Assembly: GCA_021811105.1 (NCBI GenBank)
Contig: JAJZPM010000024.1
Span: forward strand, 1 to 49,744
Origin: Nitrospirota bacterium
Lineage (GTDB): Bacteria > Nitrospirota > Thermodesulfovibrionia > Thermodesulfovibrionales > UBA6898
DNA length: 49,744 bases
Direction: 5' to 3'
The notes under the pieces are model-generated. The model saw only the letters and a list, made by a program, of their open reading frames with translations. It did not search any database and had not been told where the DNA came from. Shown here piece by piece: positions 1-10,556 of the stretch. The stretch's first letter is position 1. The number at the start of each line of letters is the position of its first letter. Both the position numbers and the translations under genes were made by a program.

Positions 1-142
1 GGGCTGTATTGGGTAACCAGTTGTCTTGAAAGTCTTTATATTACAGGGGGCTTTGTCTTTGGTCAGTTTATTATGAAGAGGTCCTTTTAATTTGAAAAGT
101 AAGGCCGGGATAAATAGCAATCCAACACCCTCCAACACTTAT
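1..142. other. Leader-distal flank of the CRISPR array
   Basis: This is the non-leader side of the type I-C array. I see no gene, no degenerate repeat and no clear hairpin here. The first repeat begins directly after it and is already a perfect copy. Confidence 0.5.
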
Positions 143-1034
<892 letters not shown>

Positions 1035-1220
1035 TGTTACATTACAACGCGATAAATCTAAACAATAAATCGACCGTTATTTGCGAACCGGCTCCTTTTC
1101 TTCTTAAGAATCCTTCAGTTGTCAAAGAGCAATGTGAAAAAATCCTTATACTTAAGGGCTATATCACATCTTGCGAACCCTTCGGGCAACTCGTGTGAGC
1201 TTGCGGTTCGCACCATGTTA
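1035..1220 (-). promoter_or_regulatory. CRISPR leader between cas2 and the array
   Basis: This 186-bp non-coding stretch separates the cas2 stop from the first leader-side repeat, where the array promoter and the integration signals of a I-C system are expected. It is AT-rich next to the array. It holds TTGCGAACC at 1081-1089 and at 1171-1179 (exactly 90 bp apart) and the inverted form GGTTCGCACC at 1205-1214. A TTGACA hexamer lies on the minus strand at 1125-1120, but I see no convincing -10 at the right distance. The leader assignment rests on position and repeat orientation. Confidence 0.75.
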
Positions 1221-1511
1221 TCAAACAATCAACGGTCCCTCCTGATCAAGCGCCGCCTTAGCTCCGACGTGCTCAACACGATGCTGCCAATTGGAACCAA
1301 GATAATAAAATCTCAGGCTGTCTTTTTCCGGGTCGATTTCCGAAATCAACCGTGCTTTCAGCTGAGCCCACTGTGCAGGATCGACAATGCATTCAAAGAC
1401 CGAAAACTGGACCCTTTGCCCGAAGTCCTTGCATGCCTTCGCAACCCTTCTCAAGCGGCGCTGCCCCGTGTCATCATTGGTAACAACATCATAACTTACG
1501 AGCACAAACAT
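1221..1511 (-). CDS. cas2: Cas2, CRISPR adaptation endonuclease-fold subunit
   Basis: Cas2 is the central dimer of the Cas1-Cas2 integrase that inserts new spacers next to the leader. The protein has 96 residues starting MFVLVSYDV. This beta strand carries the conserved Asp of the Cas2 ferredoxin fold, and RRLRRVAKACKDFGQRVQ and SVFECIV follow as in the type I-C family. I chose the ATG at 1511 because AGGTGAGG lies just upstream. A GTG four codons earlier would overlap this ribosome-binding site. It is the last gene of the cas operon, followed by the leader, and is separated from cas1 by a palindromic repeat. Confidence 0.96.
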   Translation of the reverse strand: MFVLVSYDVVTNDDTGQRRLRRVAKACKDFGQRVQFSVFECIVDPAQWAQLKARLISEIDPEKDSLRFYYLGSNWQHRVEHVGAKAALDQEGPLIV

Positions 1512-1532
1512 AATTAGCCTCACCTATAACTC

Positions 1533-1585: not shown

Positions 1586-2617
1586 TCACTTCCATATAAA
1601 CGGCGGATAATCGTCGATATCACATCTGAGATAACGCGCCATCAAGAGCGCCTGCGCGTAAGGGAGAAGACCGATTGCCATCTTCTCTTTGAGGAAAGGG
1701 TGCTCTATCTCCTCCTGCTTGCGTTTCTGATACGCAACAAGGACCGTCCTTCTTGTATCATCATCCATCCATACCGCACCTGATTCTTTCTGCTTGAAAC
1801 CCTTTGCGTCAACCTGGCCCAGGTTGATCAAAGAAAGAGCAAGCCGGTCGGCAATAAACGGCCTGAATTCTTCCATGAGGTCAAGGGCAAGACCGTACCG
1901 TCCCGGACGGTCCCGGTGCAGGAAGCCGACTGCCGGATCAAGCCCGACCGATTCGAGCCCGGACCTGACATCATGCATCAGGAGAGTGTAAAGAAATGAC
2001 AACAGGCAATTGACATTGTCCAGCGGCGGTCTGCGGTTCCGTTCGTGGAACTTAAAATCATCTTTCTGTGAAGTCACCAGATGATCAAAGACATCGAAAT
2101 ACGCGTTGGCCGATTCCCCTTCTATCCCTCTGACGATATCCAAAGGGGCTTCAGACTGCAACCTTCTCAGCGTATTTGAAAGCTTCTGCGAGGTCCGGGA
2201 CATTGAGTCAACGTCAACCTTTTCTGGATGGTCCCGTAATGCCCGCTGGATCACCGTGCGGCAGTTTGCGACCTTGCCCGTTACGATAGCCCGCGCTATC
2301 GCCGCAGATGCATTCAGATCATCGGCGCGCCGGAACTGCTCACGCCTGAGAAGGACATTGCCGGATACAGGCCCCTGGACCTTTGCCAAGAAAGCGCCGT
2401 TTTCCGTAAGAAAACTGATTGCAACCTGGTTTTCGGCGCAGAAACCCATCAGGTAGGGGCTGCACGAGACCTGACCGAAGCAAACGATTCCGCCTAATGT
2501 GTGGACGGGCAGACGCAAAGCGACTTCTCCGTCGATCTTGACGACGACCGTTTCGCCTTCTTTTGAAAGATACGCACCCTGAGTTGTAACGAAGAGAGTG
2601 TTAAGAAGCTTTTTCAT
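1586..2617 (-). CDS. cas1: Cas1, CRISPR integrase (type I-C)
   Basis: Cas1 is the metal-dependent integrase that, with Cas2, inserts protospacers into the array. The 343-aa length is normal for Cas1c. The N-terminal beta domain begins MKKLLNTLFVTTQGAYL. The helical catalytic domain shows the family metal ligands: Glu in RGIEGESANAYF, His in VGFLHRDRPGRYG, and the acidic stretch LALDLMEEFRPFIADR. The start is supported by an AGAGGAT-like ribosome-binding site about 5 nt upstream. It lies between cas4 and cas2, and both junctions carry palindromic repeats. I see no damage in the frame. Confidence 0.98.
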   Translation of the reverse strand: MKKLLNTLFVTTQGAYLSKEGETVVVKIDGEVALRLPVHTLGGIVCFGQVSCSPYLMGFCAENQVAISFLTENGAFLAKVQGPVSGNVLLRREQFRRADDLNASAAIARAIVTGKVANCRTVIQRALRDHPEKVDVDSMSRTSQKLSNTLRRLQSEAPLDIVRGIEGESANAYFDVFDHLVTSQKDDFKFHERNRRPPLDNVNCLLSFLYTLLMHDVRSGLESVGLDPAVGFLHRDRPGRYGLALDLMEEFRPFIADRLALSLINLGQVDAKGFKQKESGAVWMDDDTRRTVLVAYQKRKQEEIEHPFLKEKMAIGLLPYAQALLMARYLRCDIDDYPPFIWK

Positions 2618-2634
2618 TTCTATCCTCTTTTGTC

Positions 2635-2688
2635 ACTCCGCAAGTCCGGAGTCCTTCTTTGGCTGTCATTCCGCACTTGATGCGGAAT
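2635..2688. repeat. Two tandem REP-like palindromes at the cas4 3' end
   Basis: The first hairpin is ACTCCG (2635-2640) with CGGAGT (2647-2652). The second is a perfect 8-bp stem, ATTCCGCA (2668-2675) with TGCGGAAT (2681-2688). Both have the GTCATTCC...GGAATCCAG style of REP elements, and the one at 41734-41753 is closely related. The second hairpin overlaps the last codons and the stop of cas4, so the C-terminal residues of Cas4 are encoded by the repeat. Confidence 0.8.
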
Positions 2689-3334
2689 CCAGTTCCTTTT
2701 CTATCGCCTTCATCAGATAATTACCGGCCTTTCTGTTTACCTTCGGCATACAAAGATCAAGCAAAGAACACTTTTTGCACTTCTTCGAATATTCGGCCTT
2801 CGGCGTCACACCGGCTTCTATAAGCTCATGCACCTTTCTGGCCGCATCTTCCGTCTCGCTCCGCAATTCTTCATCGAACACGACCTCTTCCCTGCGGCGC
2901 GTCCGGCCGTAAAAGAGCGCACCCTTTTTGATATCAACATTGAGCATCTCTTCAAGACAGATCGCCTGTGCGCAAAGCTGGACCTTGTCGCAATCATCCA
3001 TTTTGGGCTTTCCCCGCTTGTATTCAACGGGAAAAGGCACCCATGATCCGTCATCCATCCGGTGAAATTCGACTACATCGGCTTTGCCGATGAGTCCCAG
3101 CCTCAACGAGCGCATCGGAATGCTGTATTCGATGCGGACATTCCCGCGTGATTCAGATTTGTTGCTGTCGGCCTTGTCATGCATGATGCGTCCCTCGGCG
3201 GTGAAGAGGTTTTCCGTCCATAGTTGTTCGATGTGGATCAAGGCGCACTGCCGGGGGCAGTACACAAAGTGCTGCAGGGCCGAAAGGGGCACCAAATCAT
3301 CCTCGGAATAGGGCCTATAAGTCTTATTGGTCAT
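2666..3334 (-). CDS. cas4: Cas4, iron-sulfur exonuclease of CRISPR adaptation
   Basis: Cas4 trims prespacers and helps select PAM-adjacent fragments together with Cas1-Cas2. The 222-aa protein has one Fe-S cysteine in HFVYCPRQC near the N-terminus and the other three in CKKCSLLDLC near the C-terminus. Between them lies a RecB/PD-(D/E)XK nuclease core: LIGKADVVEF, then PVEYKRGKPK with the catalytic E-x-K. Both ends look altered by repeats. The first residues MTNKTYRPY are encoded by the repeat at 3307-3346 and the last few by a REP-like palindrome. The body, from SEDDLVPLSALQHF on, is normal. The upstream S23 gene ends only 7 nt before its start. Confidence 0.97.
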   Translation of the reverse strand: MTNKTYRPYSEDDLVPLSALQHFVYCPRQCALIHIEQLWTENLFTAEGRIMHDKADSNKSESRGNVRIEYSIPMRSLRLGLIGKADVVEFHRMDDGSWVPFPVEYKRGKPKMDDCDKVQLCAQAICLEEMLNVDIKKGALFYGRTRRREEVVFDEELRSETEDAARKVHELIEAGVTPKAEYSKKCKKCSLLDLCMPKVNRKAGNYLMKAIEKELDSASSAE

Positions 3335-3346
3335 ATAGGACCTATT
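3307..3346. repeat. Tyr-codon-rich dispersed repeat over the cas4 start
   Basis: This AT-rich repeat contains CCTATAAGTC and CATATAGGACCTATT. A related copy lies at 3514-3546 inside the S23 gene. Read on the minus strand it encodes Thr/Tyr-rich peptide, TYRPY in both copies. It covers the end of the S23 gene, the intergenic bases and the first codons of cas4, including its start codon. Confidence 0.65.
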
Positions 3347-3914
3347 CTTTCTTGTGGCGCGCTTGAACGCGCGACCTGTAAAGTCTTTCCGTAAACCCGC
3401 CCTCTTTCAAGAACTCTTTTTCCAAGGCCCGCAACTGCTGGTCGAGCAGGTAGTTTGTCTGGTGGATCAGGCAGATCATGGTGTTGGCAGCTTCTTCGGG
3501 CGAGCTACCTTCAATATAAGGCCTATAAGTCATATAAGACCTATTTTTTTCATAAGCAAGCGCTCTTACCTTTTGCGCTTGTTTATGTTCCTTTCCCCAA
3601 AGGGGCAACCCTTTCTGCCGCACAAAGTCCTGAAAATCCAAAAGCAATTCCTCAAGACTCGCCCGCGCCACTCCGACAAGCTTCAGTTCGGTCTTCTTGG
3701 AAGTGCCCGACGCCATGCTGCCTTCGGCGATGTTCTGCTTGCCGCTCCTGGCCGCCTGCACCATCTGGTCTTGAGTGCGGGACCGGCGGTCGATGAACCG
3801 GTCGCAAAATGCCACTGTGGCATCATAAACAATCTCCGCCATTTGGTAGGACTGCAGCTCCCGGTACCCGCCGTGAGGAGGGATGAGGGGCGGGAGGTTG
3901 TTGGGATTAGTCAT
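3342..3914 (-). CDS. S23-type four-helix-bundle protein between cas4 and cas7
   Basis: The 190-aa protein matches the small helical family first known from intervening sequences of 23S rRNA genes (TIGR02436-like). Typical motifs are YRELQSYQMAEIVYD, FIDRRSRTQDQMVQAARSG, KQNIAEGS and SRASLEELL-like VARASLEELLLDF. Members often occur alone, and the related Avd protein acts in diversity-generating retroelements. Its role here is unknown. I chose the ATG at 3914 because the second copy begins at the equivalent codon (4719). The segment NRSYMTYRPYIEG in the third helix region comes from the repeat at 3514-3546. It is co-oriented with the cas genes and may be cotranscribed with them, although a plus-strand toxin-antitoxin module lies upstream. 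Confidence 0.85.
   Translation of the reverse strand: MTNPNNLPPLIPPHGGYRELQSYQMAEIVYDATVAFCDRFIDRRSRTQDQMVQAARSGKQNIAEGSMASGTSKKTELKLVGVARASLEELLLDFQDFVRQKGLPLWGKEHKQAQKVRALAYEKNRSYMTYRPYIEGSSPEEAANTMICLIHQTNYLLDQQLRALEKEFLKEGGFTERLYRSRVQARHKKE
3514..3546. repeat. Second copy of the Tyr-codon-rich repeat, inside the S23 gene
   Basis: TATAAGGCCTATAAGTC is followed by CATATAAGACCTATT, closely matching the copy at 3307-3346. It is in frame within the S23 gene and encodes the stretch around RSYMTYRPY. The family tolerates such inserts in my recollection; the duplication itself is visible here. Confidence 0.65.
3712..3914. repeat. Direct repeat, left copy (5' end of the intact S23 gene)
   Basis: These 203 bp align without gaps to 4517-4719 with roughly 19 mismatches, about 90% identity. 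The two copies are in direct orientation and exactly bracket the 602-bp toxin-antitoxin segment 3915-4516. Confidence 0.9.
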
Positions 3915-3972
3915 GCAGGAGGCCCTCAACCGCTTCTCTTTCTTTCAGTCGTTCTTGACTGGCATTGCCTTG

Positions 3973-3997
3973 TATTGTACAATAGATTGTACAATAC
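3973..3997. promoter_or_regulatory. Paired TGTACA palindromes, YefM-YoeB operator
   Basis: TATTGTACAATA (3973-3984) is a perfect palindrome and ATTGTACAAT (3986-3995) is a second, with centres 12 bp apart. Adjacent palindromes with a TGTACA core are the known operator design of E. coli yefM-yoeB. The site sits 16-40 nt upstream of the antitoxin start. AAGGAG (4001-4006) is the ribosome-binding site. Confidence 0.85.
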
Positions 3998-4012
3998 TGA
4001 AAGGAGATATCC

Positions 4013-4264
4013 ATGGACACAATCACATACTCGGACGCCCGTGAACGTTTGGCGGCCACAATGAAAAAGGTGTGCGAAAACCACGAGCCGGTCATTATCA
4101 CCAGGCAAAAGGAAGAATCGGTGGTTATGCTTTCGCTTGAAGATTTCAGATCGCTTGAGGAAACCTCATACCTGCTGCGGGTGCCCAAGAATGCAAAGCG
4201 GCTTCTTGAATCCATTGCGGAACTCGAACGCGGCGGCGGCAAGGTCCGCAAACTGGCCGAGTGA
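4013..4264 (+). CDS. yefM: YefM-family antitoxin (Phd/YefM fold)
   Basis: The 83-aa antitoxin should bind and neutralise the YoeB toxin encoded next to it and repress their shared promoter. The N-terminal DNA-binding half has the family pattern [20 protein letters not shown] followed by [21 protein letters not shown]. The C-terminal half, ending [12 protein letters not shown], is the toxin-binding tail. The start is fixed by AAGGAG seven nt upstream and by the operator just before it. It is transcribed opposite to all surrounding cas genes. The pair is the only plus-strand content between the array and 10.8 kb. Confidence 0.93.
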
Positions 4265-4515
4265 AACTTATCTTTTCGGAACACGCCTGGGAGGACTACC
4301 TTTACTGGCAGAATACCGACAAACTGATGCTCAAACGCATCAACCGGCTTATCCATGAGATCATGCATGACCCTTTCACCGGTTCCGGCAAACCCGAACC
4401 CCTCAAACACGGACTTTCCGGCTACTGGTCGCGCCGCATCAACGACGAGCACCGGCTCGTCTACCGGCCCGCCGAAGACGCCGTTCTTATCGCGATGTTG
4501 AGGTATCATTATTGA
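4261..4515 (+). CDS. yoeB: YoeB-family toxin, ribosome-dependent mRNA interferase
   Basis: YoeB cleaves mRNA in the ribosomal A site. The 84-aa protein has the same length as E. coli YoeB, and the known catalytic residues fall at the same numbers: Glu46, Arg65, His83 and Tyr84, with the C-terminus RYHY. It starts at a GTG that overlaps the antitoxin stop by 4 nt, so translation is coupled. The frame is intact, so the toxin is probably functional. Its stop lies directly at the junction with the truncated S23 copy (4517 onward). Confidence 0.94.
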
Positions 4516-4719
4516 GGCCATGCTGCCTTCGGCGATGTTCTGCTTGCCGCTCCTGGCCGCCTGCACCATCTGGTCATGAGTGCGGGACCGCCTGTCGATA
4601 AACCGGTCACAAAATGCCACTGTGGCATCATACACAATCTCCGCCATTTGGTAAGATTGCAGCTCCCGGTATCCGCCGTGAGAGAGGATGAGGGAAGGTA
4701 GATCGTTGGGGTCAGTCAT
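4513..4719 (-). pseudogene. Truncated second copy of the S23 four-helix-bundle gene
   Basis: The first 68 or so codons of an S23-type gene, MTDPNDLPSLILSHGG through [11 protein letters not shown], match the N-terminus of the intact gene at 3914. At about 4516 homology ends abruptly and the frame runs on antisense through yoeB without resembling anything. It is the right-hand arm of the direct repeat around the toxin-antitoxin module. Its start codon lies just 8 nt after the cas7 stop, so it may still be translated as a fusion with meaningless sequence. Confidence 0.85.
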
Positions 4720-4727
4720 AAGTCACC

Positions 4728-5579
4728 CTACAATATCTTGTCTTCAGGCCACACCTGAATTTCAAGTCCAGCAGGTAGCTCGTTCCTATCTACAGTAATC
4801 TTATAATCTTCTATCCTTCTCGGCAAATCAGCTTTTTTCGCTACCTTTACTCGATTAAACAATCTACCTGACAAATCCCTACCTAAATGATGGTTGTGAT
4901 TGAATATAACCAATTTTCGTGGATTCATTTCACCCCTTGCAGCTGCCCGGTCATGCTCAAAGGCGTTGATAAGAGCTTTCCAAAGAAGTATCAAGTCATC
5001 TTCATTAAAGCCGGTTTTCTTAGCATCGACAGCTGAAACAAATCCGTGCATCCTATAGAGTGCATAGGGCACAGTTGATTTTCTGCCAAACGTTGAGGCA
5101 TATTCTCTGCTTTCCTGTTTCTTCGCATCTTCTTCTGTTGTCACAGCACAACGTGTTATAGAATGTTCGGCCTGATAGATACGATCCTCAGAACGAGCAA
5201 AGGTCAACTGCACAGGCCCCCTGACAGTGCCCGCGCCTTTATCGCCGGTCGATAAAACAGCGCCGAAGGTCCTAATATCAAAATATTGTTTGCATAAACT
5301 GGTTTGCCGCTGCTGGATATTCTCGCCGGAGGCGGCATCGATAATCTTATTTAAAATTTGCTCCTGTCTGATAAATATATCGAAGGGAGGTTTAAGTTCT
5401 TTCTCAAGCATTACATAATTCCTGACTTTCCTTTTGATGCAAACATCTGTTACAAGCCCATGTTGGTCTTCGGCGTCTGCTCTGGGCAGGTTCAGCTGGT
5501 CGGGATCGCCGTTGGGGTTGCCGTCTTTAACGTCAAAGAGAAATACAAAGTCATACCTGTTTTTGATTGCTTCAGTCAT
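4728..5579 (-). CDS. cas7: Cas7 (Csd2), backbone subunit of type I-C Cascade
   Basis: Cas7 forms the helical backbone that holds the crRNA spacer in the I-C surveillance complex. The 283-aa protein has the typical Csd2 opening YDFVFLFDVKDGNPNGDPDQ, then LVTDVCIKRKVRNYV, FDIRTFGAVL and the RAMP-like FNHNHHLGRDLSGRLF region. The start is supported by GGAGGG upstream. It follows cas8c by 11 nt and is the last interference gene before the S23/toxin-antitoxin island separates it from cas4. Confidence 0.97.
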   Translation of the reverse strand: MTEAIKNRYDFVFLFDVKDGNPNGDPDQLNLPRADAEDQHGLVTDVCIKRKVRNYVMLEKELKPPFDIFIRQEQILNKIIDAASGENIQQRQTSLCKQYFDIRTFGAVLSTGDKGAGTVRGPVQLTFARSEDRIYQAEHSITRCAVTTEEDAKKQESREYASTFGRKSTVPYALYRMHGFVSAVDAKKTGFNEDDLILLWKALINAFEHDRAAARGEMNPRKLVIFNHNHHLGRDLSGRLFNRVKVAKKADLPRRIEDYKITVDRNELPAGLEIQVWPEDKIL

Positions 5580-5590
5580 CTTATACCCTC

Positions 5591-7423
5591 CTATTTGGTT
5601 TTATTTGCGCCGCTGAACTGTAACTGTCTCTGATGGTAATATCCGATTGCAAACTGGCCCTGCTGTTCCAATGTAAAAGAAGCCGGGAAGCTGTTGATAT
5701 CTACGTCTTTACACAACTCCTGAAGCTCTTTGTCCAGAGTGACCGCAAGCCCCGGCTTGTCGCTTTTGAGCTTTGTGAAGTGTTTTGAATTGAGGTTGAA
5801 AAGCCGGCCGAATGCAGACGCCGGAGAAGTCATTGAATATGTAAAATACCTCTCTCTGATTCCGGCGTTCCTGTCTCCCAAAGCTGCATATTGAATGCTC
5901 TCAAGCTTTGCGAAGATTTGGCCGCAGACATAGGCCACAGGCCTTCTTCCCTCCATAATATTTTCCGTAACCATGAAATTGCCTCCTTTGTTATGTCGAT
6001 TCAAAATAAGTCTTATCAAAGCGGCTCTATCGGCTGTAACTCCGTCCAGTCGTGCGCGTTGAATCACCTTTGTCAGTAACCAAAGAGGCGGCAGGCTGTC
6101 TTTTAAAGCCGCATTCCATAAACATGCTGCCGCCCTCGCCAAAGACGTGTCATCTTTGTCATTTTTCCCATCGTTGTTTTTCCTCTGGCAGCTTCTTGCC
6201 AGGTCATAAAGTCGGGCATAGTGTGTCCGGATTGCTTTCAAATCAAAATCATATTCGGAGATGGCAATGTCCTGGAACCATTTCGCAATAGACTTCCTGA
6301 AATCAAACAGGCTTGTTTCAATCCAGTCCCGGACGACAATACGGGCTGCAGACCCCGAAAGGGTACAGGAATAAAACTGGTCGGGTTCGATATAGGTTTG
6401 CTTGCCGGAAGCAACCGAATCTATAAGCATAGCCACCTCTTCAGGCTTAGGTTCTTCAAGAAAGTCTATCTCTTCCACATTGGCATTCTTGCGCGTCCAA
6501 AAAATCATCGCTGTATCAACGCCATAACTTGCCGACCTTGTACGGGGCCAACGATGCTTATAAAGAATGTCGTCTTTATTTCTTTTGTTTTTAAACGGAA
6601 GCCCAGACAAAAGCATATTCAGGCCTTCAACATAGGTCTTTGCACAGTTTGTGCATATCATACTGTTTTCATTGCCTATCATGCAGTATGATTCAAAAGG
6701 GTTGTGGTCTCCATTATAGGAAATCAATTTTCGGCCACCCGCAGGTTCTTTATCACCCGGCACGCCTTTGATAGGAAAGTGAGTGAAATCTCCCACAGGG
6801 AATTGATCGCTTGCACAGACAGCACATTTCTTTTTTGTCGTTGACATGAATGTCTGTTGTTTAGATTCGTATGTCTCGATTAATTTTTGATAAACTGTTT
6901 CATTCTCATGCACATATTTATTTTCCCCTGAAATGCGGAATGCAATGTTTCCACCCCGATCCTTTTTCGAGAGTTTTGCAAATTCGCTCATTGCATGATT
7001 AACTGCTTCATGATTCTTGTAGAATGAATGCACAGGACTCACTTCATTTAACTCTGCCACTTCCTGCAGACGAGCTTTGAAAAGCTTGTTCTTCGCATCA
7101 GTATCCTCGATGAAAATATCATGAGCTTTATGTTCGCTCTTTTCTTTGACTTTCTTTTTAAAAGCAGCGCTTTCACAATCATACACGCCAAGAACATATC
7201 CACAATTATCGATTAGGAGCCGTGCGCCTTTGCCGCTGGTTCGTTGGAGCGCTTCCGCTGCAGTTTTCTTCTTCTCAATACTGTGCAAAGAAACAAAACT
7301 ACCATTCGGCATGATCGTTAGCACCAAAGATATGGTTTCATCTTTGAGAGCGTCATGGACCCATTCGTTATCAGCCTTGTCCGCCCGGAGTGTCTTTCCA
7401 AGTTCGCTTAACTCCTTGATCAT
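5591..7423 (-). CDS. cas8c: Cas8c (Csd1), large subunit of type I-C Cascade
   Basis: Cas8c recognises the PAM and recruits Cas3; in several I-C systems an internal start within this gene also supplies the small subunit. The 610-aa length suits the family. Recognisable stretches are MPNGSFVSLHSIEKKKTAAE, the cysteine pairs CAVC and ICTNC around residues 195-260, SASYGVDTAMIFWTRK, and the C-terminal HFTKLKSDKPGLAV region. The start overlaps the cas5 stop by 4 nt (ATGA), showing translational coupling. I did not find an obvious internal small-subunit start by eye, but did not exclude one. Confidence 0.96.
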   Translation of the reverse strand: MIKELSELGKTLRADKADNEWVHDALKDETISLVLTIMPNGSFVSLHSIEKKKTAAEALQRTSGKGARLLIDNCGYVLGVYDCESAAFKKKVKEKSEHKAHDIFIEDTDAKNKLFKARLQEVAELNEVSPVHSFYKNHEAVNHAMSEFAKLSKKDRGGNIAFRISGENKYVHENETVYQKLIETYESKQQTFMSTTKKKCAVCASDQFPVGDFTHFPIKGVPGDKEPAGGRKLISYNGDHNPFESYCMIGNENSMICTNCAKTYVEGLNMLLSGLPFKNKRNKDDILYKHRWPRTRSASYGVDTAMIFWTRKNANVEEIDFLEEPKPEEVAMLIDSVASGKQTYIEPDQFYSCTLSGSAARIVVRDWIETSLFDFRKSIAKWFQDIAISEYDFDLKAIRTHYARLYDLARSCQRKNNDGKNDKDDTSLARAAACLWNAALKDSLPPLWLLTKVIQRARLDGVTADRAALIRLILNRHNKGGNFMVTENIMEGRRPVAYVCGQIFAKLESIQYAALGDRNAGIRERYFTYSMTSPASAFGRLFNLNSKHFTKLKSDKPGLAVTLDKELQELCKDVDINSFPASFTLEQQGQFAIGYYHQRQLQFSGANKTK

Positions 7424-8163
7424 AATTCTGTCTCGCTTTCTTCCTGCTGATTGAACGCGTAAATTGCGGCGGATATCTCGCTGTCACCAGGTGGGCGAAA
7501 ATGGCTGGATTGCATCATGGTGTCGTTTTCCGGGATTTCGCAGTTCAATATGCCATTGCGTACAGCCACATCATGAAAGAACAACGGCTCAGGCTTGCCT
7601 TTTTCATCATAATAGATATCGAAGAGCATGTTTCCAACGGGCACGGTTTCCTTAATCGGCTTTTCCGTGCCATCTGGCTCCATAAACTCGGCTGAAAACT
7701 CGCGTGTGCCGAGATACGGCCTTCTCCAGCATTGGCCTTTCCTGACACGGCGGACAAAGATTCCGTCACGATCGGCGTCAATTCCCTTTCTGCCTATATA
7801 TTTCTCAGGTCTGTTTCTGTCCGACATCTGATTCTGATGGATGGACGCTTCGATGATATAGGCAACATCTTTCAGGACTACGCTGTTACGCTGAGCGCGC
7901 TTATCTTCCACAATAATTGGCGTTTTACCCTGCTTGGCATTGATTTCATTTCGCTTGATTGTTGCAAAACGGACAGGCTTCAGAACGATTATCCGTCTCA
8001 CATACCACTGAAATTCCGGCTTCCAAAGGATCGAATCCAATATCCCCCGCGCCGCAGACGGCGTCATGCACGGGTAGGACATGCGTTCAATTTTCAAGTC
8101 CGGCCTTGTAAAACATGCAAAATCTCCTTTCACTTTTACTCTCACAACTCGATCATCCGGCAT
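7420..8163 (-). CDS. cas5: Cas5c, pre-crRNA processing nuclease of type I-C
   Basis: Type I-C lacks cas6, and Cas5c cleaves the repeat hairpin to make crRNA and caps the 5' handle. The 247-aa protein has the Cas5 RAMP opening VRVKVKGDFACFTRPDLKIE, followed by YPCMTPSAARGILDSILWKP, the glycine/arginine segment conserved in Cas5d/c proteins, and later RRVRKGQCWRRPYLGTREF. It lies 11 nt after cas3 and overlaps cas8c by 4 nt. The type III Cas6 at 41.2 kb belongs to a different operon and is not expected to process this array. Confidence 0.96.
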   Translation of the reverse strand: MPDDRVVRVKVKGDFACFTRPDLKIERMSYPCMTPSAARGILDSILWKPEFQWYVRRIIVLKPVRFATIKRNEINAKQGKTPIIVEDKRAQRNSVVLKDVAYIIEASIHQNQMSDRNRPEKYIGRKGIDADRDGIFVRRVRKGQCWRRPYLGTREFSAEFMEPDGTEKPIKETVPVGNMLFDIYYDEKGKPEPLFFHDVAVRNGILNCEIPENDTMMQSSHFRPPGDSEISAAIYAFNQQEESETEL

Positions 8164-8174
8164 TGGCCCTCCTT

Positions 8175-10358
8175 CTATAAAACCAGTTTGTCCGCCTCAA
8201 TGGGTGCAATGGAAATGCCCGTATTATCGTCATAGTTTCCATACCAAACCCTGAACCCTTGGGGCATCAATTTGCACATCGAGGCATTCTGCAAAATAAA
8301 ATACTCATACACCTGGACCGTATACACCTGCATCCTGCGATAATCGGCCCTTGATAGGAATTCCTTGTATTCCAGCGAATGGAGCAGTTGTCTGCTATCT
8401 TCGTTATAATTGTAGATAAAAAGCCCTTCCGTTGCGTCTTTTATCAGATGATAGGCATCATTGACGGTCTCAAAATTGAACTCTTTGCGCGCATTATTGA
8501 TCCCCTGCTGTCTTGACTGATCTATGTAAAGATCAACAACATCGGCATAATATTTTTCGAATACATCATGCCGGTAAAGGCGGTTGATATCGTTCTTTAT
8601 CAGCTCTTCGGCAAATCCGGCGCAGGCTTCATAGGTTTTATCCGGCATTTTCGAGTTTTTCAATTTAAACAGGACTACATTGCCATAACCGTTCATGCCT
8701 CCCTCCCGATTGCACCGCCCGGCTGACTGGATTATCGCCTCAAGTGGGGCAACGGCACGAAAAACAACAGGAAAATCAAAATCAACTCCTGCCTCGATAA
8801 GCTGCGTAGAGGCAACAAGGATTTTCCTATTGGCCTTCAGATCTGCCCTGATCCTCTCTATCACTTCTTTTCGATGAGAAGGGCACATTGCGGTCGAAAG
8901 ATGATATTTCTCCTCCCAGTTCTCATAAGGCGTCATGGCGATATGGAATTCCAGCGCGGCTTTCTTTGTGTTGAATATTACAAGAGCGGAATCATCACAC
9001 CCCATCACTGCTTCAGACAGCCGTCCATTATCTATCGGCGCCAGATTATCCAATAAGTTGTATGTAACCCGCCTTGTTACGTCATAGATATTGCCTGGAT
9101 CTTCAATCAACGGCATAATGGAATCAATGCCGTCGAATCCAGGTCTTTTCTCATAGGCGGGCTGAGTGGCGGTGCAAAACAGAAATGAGGTCTTCATGAC
9201 TTCGTGGACATCTTTTAACATCTGGAGTGTAGGCAAGATGATTTCCTTAGGAATTGACTGGACCTCGTCAAAGATCACCACCGCTTCAGCAATATTATGG
9301 TTTTTGCGACATCTGGACGGCTTGTTGCTGAAAAGTGATTCAAAAAATTGTACCGTAGTTGTGACTATGGCAGGAAAGTCCCAATTTTCGCAGGCAAGCT
9401 GTTTTCGTTTCTGCTCAGCAGTAAGGTTTTCATTCGTGTCCTTGCTATTATCCCCTTCGTTGTAAGAAGAATGGTGTTCAAGGACCCATTCCTCGCCGAA
9501 GATTCGTTTCAGTTCCTGAGCGGTCTGGTCAATGATGCTGATATACGGCAAAACTATTATGATTCGCTTCAATCCGTTGTGTCTGGCATGATGCAAGGCC
9601 CACGCCATAGATGTCAGCGTCTTGCCCATGCCGGTCGGCAGCGCCAGCGAATAAAAACCTGACGGAAGCAAAGCTTTGTCGAGCGCATGTTTCCGGCCTT
9701 CGTTGCGTAACTGGTTGATGTCCCCATTTGTTGATTTACTCGAAAATTCCGCTTCCAGTCTAAAGACCATCTCATCAATCGGCAATACTCCTCCAGCTCT
9801 AAGCTCAGTTTTTTCAGGCTCAAAATGCTCCTCAGTAGAAAGCCAGTCGCTGTCGGTCAATGCGCTGAAAAGGTAGCGGATAAAAACTTCACGCTGAAAT
9901 TTCTTTTCTTCTCCTCCGAATATTGAAAAAGCGTCGTTGGAAAAATCAGACTCGTTAATCTTGAGGTCGCCGATAAAAGCTTGTCTTACCTTTTCAAACT
10001 CCAGAACCTCCAGTCGTTTAAAGCGCTCCGTGTCGCTCTTCCAGGCTGCAGCGTCCGGCAGCCCCTTATGATGTCCGTCAATGGCAAAAGATGCCTCAAG
10101 AGCTTTAAGAATTCTTGCGTAGCCTGCGCCCCATGAGGCATGAGGAACGCTCCCGCGACGCCCGCCGTTTATGAGATAGTCCTGAAAAGCGGGTTGATAT
10201 TTGCCGAGGTCGTGCAATAAGCTGGCAATTCTAAAAATTGGCTTGTATTCATCCAGACATGCAAATGTTTCCGCCAATTGCGCTGAATCGAGCAGATGTT
10301 TTGATAGGCTGTGCTTTTCATTCTTGCCATTTTCTGAGTGCGCATAATATTCAGTCAT
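8175..10358 (-). CDS. cas3: Cas3, HD nuclease-helicase (type I-C)
   Basis: Cas3 is recruited to the R-loop and degrades target DNA. The 727-aa protein has an N-terminal HD domain with His at residue 21 (SKHLLDSAQ), His49-Asp50 (IASLLHDLGK) and DGHHKGLPDA. The SF2 helicase follows with Walker A LPTGMGKTLTS near residue 243, the DEVQ box near 364, and motifs ASTQLIEAGVDFDFP and QSAGRCNREGG. It begins the cas operon. Its start codon directly follows the stop of a cas3 fossil, GAAGGGATG supplying the ribosome-binding site from inside that fossil. All key residues are present. Confidence 0.97.
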   Translation of the reverse strand: MTEYYAHSENGKNEKHSLSKHLLDSAQLAETFACLDEYKPIFRIASLLHDLGKYQPAFQDYLINGGRRGSVPHASWGAGYARILKALEASFAIDGHHKGLPDAAAWKSDTERFKRLEVLEFEKVRQAFIGDLKINESDFSNDAFSIFGGEEKKFQREVFIRYLFSALTDSDWLSTEEHFEPEKTELRAGGVLPIDEMVFRLEAEFSSKSTNGDINQLRNEGRKHALDKALLPSGFYSLALPTGMGKTLTSMAWALHHARHNGLKRIIIVLPYISIIDQTAQELKRIFGEEWVLEHHSSYNEGDNSKDTNENLTAEQKRKQLACENWDFPAIVTTTVQFFESLFSNKPSRCRKNHNIAEAVVIFDEVQSIPKEIILPTLQMLKDVHEVMKTSFLFCTATQPAYEKRPGFDGIDSIMPLIEDPGNIYDVTRRVTYNLLDNLAPIDNGRLSEAVMGCDDSALVIFNTKKAALEFHIAMTPYENWEEKYHLSTAMCPSHRKEVIERIRADLKANRKILVASTQLIEAGVDFDFPVVFRAVAPLEAIIQSAGRCNREGGMNGYGNVVLFKLKNSKMPDKTYEACAGFAEELIKNDINRLYRHDVFEKYYADVVDLYIDQSRQQGINNARKEFNFETVNDAYHLIKDATEGLFIYNYNEDSRQLLHSLEYKEFLSRADYRRMQVYTVQVYEYFILQNASMCKLMPQGFRVWYGNYDDNTGISIAPIEADKLVL

Positions 10359-10556
10359 TTACATCCCTTCGTGCCACAACCCCGCCAGAAATCCCCATTC
10401 CCCGCAGCCGAATTCAGAGGCAAACCGAGCAGCGAGTTCGACGGTGCCTTTCAGATGCTCCTCAAGCCGATGCCATTCTTCAGGCGGCTTCCCCTCAAGA
10501 CTGTGCGCGTAATAATCCACGGCTATCTGCGTTTGTGGAAAGATGCGCCATGACAT
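10359..10556 (-). pseudogene. Fossil N-terminus of a second cas3 gene
   Basis: The frame beginning MSWRIFPQTQIAV continues DYYAHSLEGKPPEEWHRL, then EEHLKGTVELAARFA and WGFLAGLWHEGM, then stops. This is the start of a Cas3 HD domain of a different subfamily from the working gene (YYAHSENGKNEKHS). It breaks off exactly within the expected LWHDLGK motif, after the bases for Trp-His and GA. The next base pairs are the stop and the ATG of the intact cas3. The best reading is a recombination scar where a I-C cassette replaced an older cas operon. The fossil may still be translated as a short upstream peptide and carries the downstream ribosome-binding site. Confidence 0.8.

Follow-up and report, generated by a model that had tools for sequence, protein, structure and literature searches.

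Why does the beginning of one cas3 gene stand directly in front of a complete and different cas3 at this locus, and where did the two come together? In the window (the whole 49,744-nucleotide stretch of Nitrospirota DNA analyzed here), a minus-strand open reading frame runs from 10556 to 10359 and translates as MSWRIFPQTQIAVDYYAHSLEGKPPEEWHRLEEHLKGTVELAARFASEFGCGEWGFLAGLWHEGM*, with its codons in 10362–10556 and a TAA stop at 10361–10359. The ATG at 10358 of a 727-aa Cas3 adjoins this stop without a gap. A preliminary description had read the frame as the first ~60 codons of a different Cas3, ending in the HD motif, with the working cas3 beginning immediately behind it, and its sequence and coordinates agree with ours. 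The frame is a Cas3 remnant. It matches the PADLOC Cas3c model (E = 8e-9), and its best matches in relatives reach E = 1e-30 (first search, 101 relatives); its match to NCBIfam cas3_HD is sub-threshold (E = 5e-4) because the frame is truncated. Only the first ~40–53 positions of Cas3 models are covered, which falls short of the HD nuclease and helicase domains required of a Cas3. The stub stops at the HD motif, and DNA similarity to the intact gene of the congener G002 is lost at 10369, codon 63. The remnant had also been credited with keeping the ribosome-binding site, which we do not find: no Shine-Dalgarno is visible upstream of either of its possible starts (ATG 10556 and GTG 10520, the latter where the G002 gene has its ATG), and the clear one, AAGGGA 5 nt before ATG 10358, belongs to the working cas3 and spans the joint.

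Table 1. Features of the type I-C locus in the window (window coordinates)
Feature	Position	Strand	Evidence and remarks
CRISPR array, I-C	1..1038	-	Repeat GTCGCGCCCCGCGTGGGCGCGTGGATTGAAAC; 14 repeats; reaches contig edge
cas2, right arm	1221..1523	-	TIGR01573, 73.1 bits (cut-off 24.5)
cas1c, right arm	1586..2617	-	TIGR03640 above cut-off; 84–91% identical (aa) to Cas1 of loci whose effector modules differ
cas4, right arm	2666..3334	-	TIGR00372 above cut-off; 78% aa identity to G002
Four-helix-bundle (23S rRNA IVP-like) gene, first part of right arm	3342..4719	-	With 206-bp 5′ copy and YefM-YoeB cassette
cas7c (Csd2), last gene of exchanged module	4728..5579	-	NCBIfam TIGR02589 above cut-off
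cas8c (Csd1), exchanged module	5591..7423	-	NCBIfam TIGR01863 above cut-off
cas5c, exchanged module	7420..8163	-	NCBIfam TIGR01876 above cut-off
Working cas3 (lineage B), 727 aa	8175..10358	-	NCBIfam cas3_core and cas3_HD above cut-off; 68–69% to Cas3 of G420, G121 and G199
cas3 stub	10359..10556	-	First ~60 codons of a lineage-A type I-C cas3; 77% aa identity to N terminus of G002 Cas3; groups with G002 on tree
Stub/module joint	10365..10373	-	Stub CACGA, new module AGGGATGTAA-ATG; also in L027, L148, L150

Identities and phylogeny place the stub and the working cas3 in distinct Cas3 lineages. Finding the closest Cas3 to each part, a check proposed with the preliminary description, separates them: the stub shares 77% identity with the N-terminal part of the full-length G002 Cas3, its partner on the tree (support 80/85), while the working Cas3 is 68–69% identical to proteins of other families (G420, G121, and G199) and about 35% identical to genes of the stub lineage. 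Tandem duplication of a single cas3 start, the outcome named there as fatal to replacement, could account for the YYAHS that begins both parts. However, the two share 48% identity over 33 aa only, their nearest relatives differ, and they are not each other's closest relatives, which excludes duplication.

The DNA behind the stub is a complete effector module set between arms of another origin. Window 4728–10358 holds cas3, cas5c, cas8c, and cas7c adjacent and in that order, as in a type I-C effector module; matches to the Cas5d, Csd1, Csd2, cas3_core, and cas3_HD models all exceed their curated cut-offs, and no cas6 occurs among the operon ORFs. A complete type I-C gene set, together with the adaptation genes cas4-cas1-cas2, lies downstream of the stub. 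Compared with G002, the window is 79% identical in DNA from cas1 to the four-helix-bundle gene (1586–4694) and 78% identical over the stub (10369–10525), with essentially no DNA similarity across 4694–10369 apart from one 100-bp helicase patch; Cas1 is 88% and Cas8 24% identical. Since both arms resemble G002 and the DNA between them does not, the effector module has been exchanged. As read from these alignments, the exchanged unit is cas3-cas5-cas8-cas7; it begins shortly ahead of the new cas3 and ends near the cas7 stop. Its right edge falls at ~4694–4741, similarity to G002 resuming at 4694 and that to other B modules starting at 4741. Among loci carrying A, B, and C modules, Cas1 is 84–91% identical, so adaptation genes are conserved beside unlike effectors, as in exchange in situ. 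Within the right arm, the first 206 bp of the four-helix-bundle gene are doubled (3709–3914 and 4514–4719, 90% identical), and a YefM-YoeB toxin-antitoxin cassette sits on the other strand between the copies (3915–4513). This layout of gene start, inserted genes, and complete gene is that of the cas3 stubs in L032 and L105, and DNA like the cassette occurs in 15/121 genomes of the order.

The replacement did not take place in this genome. The junction had been interpreted as the trace of one cas operon replacing another; it is indeed a replacement joint, given the distinct lineages and an effector block foreign to its flanks, but one formed elsewhere. The joint GGCAYGRAGGGATRTAAATGACTGAATATTATGCGCA is present in the window and in G080 (L027), is kept in G121 (L148), where the stub has lost its earlier part, and is present in G420 (L150) with an internally deleted stub; these genomes belong to three other families. 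Looking for the older operon at this place in related genomes had been proposed as a check. The congeners G001 and G004, whose flanking AddB and lipoprotein genes are 85–95% identical to those of the window, have no cas locus there, and similarity ends at window 10607 and 10692. Because the same joint occurs in other families and the site is empty in congeners, the exchange was not made here, and the most economical view is that the locus entered this genome as a whole, with its joint ready-made. Exchange at one chromosomal place is seen for G028 and G147, which have 97% identical leaders with different modules behind them, and not for the window's site.

Truncated cas3 starts recur across the phylum and break at a single spot. 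We searched 176 genomes of the order and 395 of the phylum, most of them draft MAGs, with a profile of the stub (A1) and found truncated starts repeatedly. Among 61 loci scanned, 35 truncated starts were measurable, a number that includes a few near-copy loci and L107, which looks like a premature stop and not a joint. All 35 break 18–58 nt past the TGG of WGYLAGLWHDLGKYS, at the codons for AGLWHDLGKYS (ends spread over ~40 bp), and intact genes in a leave-one-out control mostly continue far beyond this point. The DNA behind the stubs comprises I-C variants B, C (with a Cas8c of the MSWIxKLYETY type), and D (cas5-cas8-cas7-cas3), Bro-N genes, toxin-antitoxin or Fic genes, or nothing recognizable, and solo stubs without a module are found in L034, L035, L079, and L098. 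In all, ~20 joint classes, called by eye from aligned flanks, lie at this one spot. Stubs and intact genes are intermixed on a tree built from 47 columns, with 14 state changes, at least eight of them forced by well-supported branches, and stub/intact sister pairs occur within the same genus or family. Orphan 3′ halves are absent from the 176 genomes of the order, where the part of the gene past the HD motif gives strong matches only to full-length genes. The recurrent edge suggests a repeatedly used crossover point for swapping the effector half of the CRISPR system; we found no paper on cas3 stubs in the open-access literature.

Several other sources of this pattern were considered and rejected. 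Ascertainment bias from a query made of first codons only does not explain it, as longer truncations are detectable; mid-length frames are mostly contig edges, and truncations at other points are rare, with two real cases (G350 and G333). A B-lineage stub in G147 (L144) is cut at codon ~15. Misassembly of MAGs was rejected, since stubs lie inside long contigs in many independent assemblies, four of them for joint B1. The core site is not a dispersed recombination sequence, since it is found only in cas3 or its remnants (an apparent exception, G173:C96, reads as an internally deleted stub). A role as a conserved small protein was likewise rejected, since in many stubs the frame is interrupted by stop codons, insertions, frameshifts, or deletions.

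We lean toward the view that the stub serves as a left homology arm when effectors are exchanged, being an older lineage-A 5′ end behind which whole modules swap. The left arm would be the stub (~150–180 bp), and the right arm would be the four-helix-bundle gene, cas4-cas1-cas2, and the array, which stay fixed. A founding joint would set the first gene of an incoming module, with little beyond its ribosome-binding site, beside the G-rich AGLWHDLGKYS codons. Later, module and joint would move between genomes through homologous recombination in both arms, such that a double crossover, in the stub and on the cas4-cas1 side, swaps the effector module cleanly; the finished locus would then have entered this genome at a site empty in its relatives. 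Recombination in two arms would cause stubs to match the host lineage and joints and modules to cross families. Single joints do occur with different stubs (B1 in G000 and G080, C1 in L028 and L037, D1 in L031 and L085, the last pair with 87% identical Cas5), and joints and modules common to loci with stubs of different host lineages are what crossovers inside the stub would give. We infer that recombination in the stub carries modules and that the stub has no function as a protein. Our searches found no strain pair catching an exchange in the act and no native donor flanks of the modules. Counting against this interpretation, solo stubs carry no module, and stub frames end at the next start more often than chance predicts, hinting at selection on translation. 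Moreover, ~20 joint classes at one spot exceed what simply inheriting a few joints would produce, and something else must therefore favor the spot. As a separate observation, L031 and L101 have stubs and joints 99% identical in DNA, yet their Cas5 proteins are only 60% identical, which may reflect another module swap or a wrong choice of ORF.

Base composition offers one candidate cause of the constant edge at the HD codons. The G4Hunter window at these codons is the gene maximum in 12/14 intact lineage-A genes, and in 8 of the same 14 no window of the 9-kb locus scores higher, whereas the segment is unremarkable in 13/14 Cas3 genes from outside this set. All G3+ quadruplex motifs of the 14 intact genes lie at the HD segment, although 7/14 genes have none; a quadruplex fold is predicted at the break site in 4/14 genes, compared with a motif in 7/14. 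Codon choice is locally conserved at the segment (z = 2.8), but not uniquely so within the gene. We infer that the G-rich segment favors joint formation. One possibility, which we regard as tentative, is that in this one I-C Cas3 lineage the DNA encoding the catalytic HD motif acts as a recombination hotspot in its own right, its G-rich, codon-conserved core repeatedly founding joints, so that the gene would carry its own exchange point and make the effector variant switchable in Nitrospirota. A breakage hotspot could also act without arm-mediated exchange, the G-rich HD codons (four G runs in ~45 nt) folding or stalling replication, breaking, and rejoining to any DNA, with each stub an independent accident. 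We consider this unlikely as the whole explanation: the lineage-A G4Hunter peak, the confinement of motifs to the HD segment, and break ends imprecise over 18–58 nt all fit, but half of the intact genes lack a full motif, some stubs score low (L083, L085, and L102), amino acids account for part of the G-richness (shuffle means 0.6–1.1), and survival of 5′ halves only is left unexplained. Such breakage can be combined with left-arm exchange as the source of founding joints.

Three further explanations were weighed against exchange behind a left arm. Selection on translation would keep the promoter-proximal codons as start context for the incoming gene, with GGGGAAG as a Shine-Dalgarno and with translational coupling. 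The stub stop lies near the next start in 14/20 joint classes (8 expected, P = 0.001), and in B2, B2b, and B3 the joint precedes the new ATG by only 5–7 nt, so that GGGGAAG in the HD codons may act there as a ribosome-binding site. Most joints, however, have their own Shine-Dalgarno, solo stubs share the same end without a coupled gene, and many stubs are interrupted by insertions, stops, or deletions, making this an improbable sole cause. Selection on translation, a breakage hotspot, and a few inherited founding joints may each play a part. Insertion of a mobile element at the HD codons by site-specific integration is very unlikely. It would agree with one narrow site and varied DNA to its right, but an integrase or transposon splitting cas3 would give an exact boundary and both halves, and we instead find ends varying by tens of bases and no orphan 3′ halves; outside Nitrospirota, where the search covered plasmids and viral contigs, the viral contigs gave no match to the stub and contained no such element, no truncated copies occur among the 30 plasmid records listed, and the idea is largely refuted. 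Self-targeting, in which a crRNA or crRNA-like molecule guides the host I-C system to the HD codons and Cas3 then destroys the operon from that point, has even less to recommend it. TTC, the I-C PAM, flanks the site on both strands, but neither a matching spacer (250 spacers and the genomes searched) nor a degenerate-repeat guide near the loci was found, and we reject it.

Parts of this arrangement echo known systems. Capsule loci, for example, switch cassettes that lie between conserved flanking genes and also combine a variable middle with two homologous arms, but here the left arm is a broken piece of the replaced gene. Homology-facilitated illegitimate recombination pairs one homologous side with one non-homologous joint, as do these loci. 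Guanine-quadruplex-promoted recombination, as at Neisseria pilE, likewise places a G-rich tract beside the recombination site, although here the motif is incomplete in half of the genes and is predicted from sequence. Exchange of effector modules in situ beside fixed "attractor" adaptation genes has been reviewed (PMC6452270), and the passages of that review drawn on here list the attractors as cas6 plus the adaptation genes, without cas3. Relative to that account, the adaptation genes and array similarly stay while effector modules of the same subtype are shuffled; the difference is a visible second, left anchor, a truncated cas3 with its edge at one spot in many genomes. The new part is thus the stub arm, effector exchange beside fixed adaptation genes being already known. 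Trees and gene order have revealed effector swapping, but crossover points are rarely seen; an anchor that leaves a readable scar makes exchange events countable, datable, and assignable to donors across the phylum. If the HD codons are truly recombinogenic, an immune nuclease has a catalytic motif that is at once the site at which the immune system is rebuilt.

The stub loci hold additional insertions and variants. A short repeat with ends GGGGACTGTCCC and GGGACTGTCCCC is inserted within the stubs of L029, L032, L042, L088, and L115, in some cases keeping the frame. Bro-N domain genes recur directly after cas3 stubs or in cas operons (L105:9375–10208, L084, L097, L080, and L036), and in L029 and L032 cas4 is separated from cas1 by RhuM-family genes. 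In L110 (1395–3076), a Fic-family gene is flanked by two cas3 stubs that agree in their first ~20 residues. Variant D (L033:5992–11744; also L029, L031, and L043) encodes a Cas8 without a Pfam or NCBIfam match that only the PADLOC Cas8c model recognizes.
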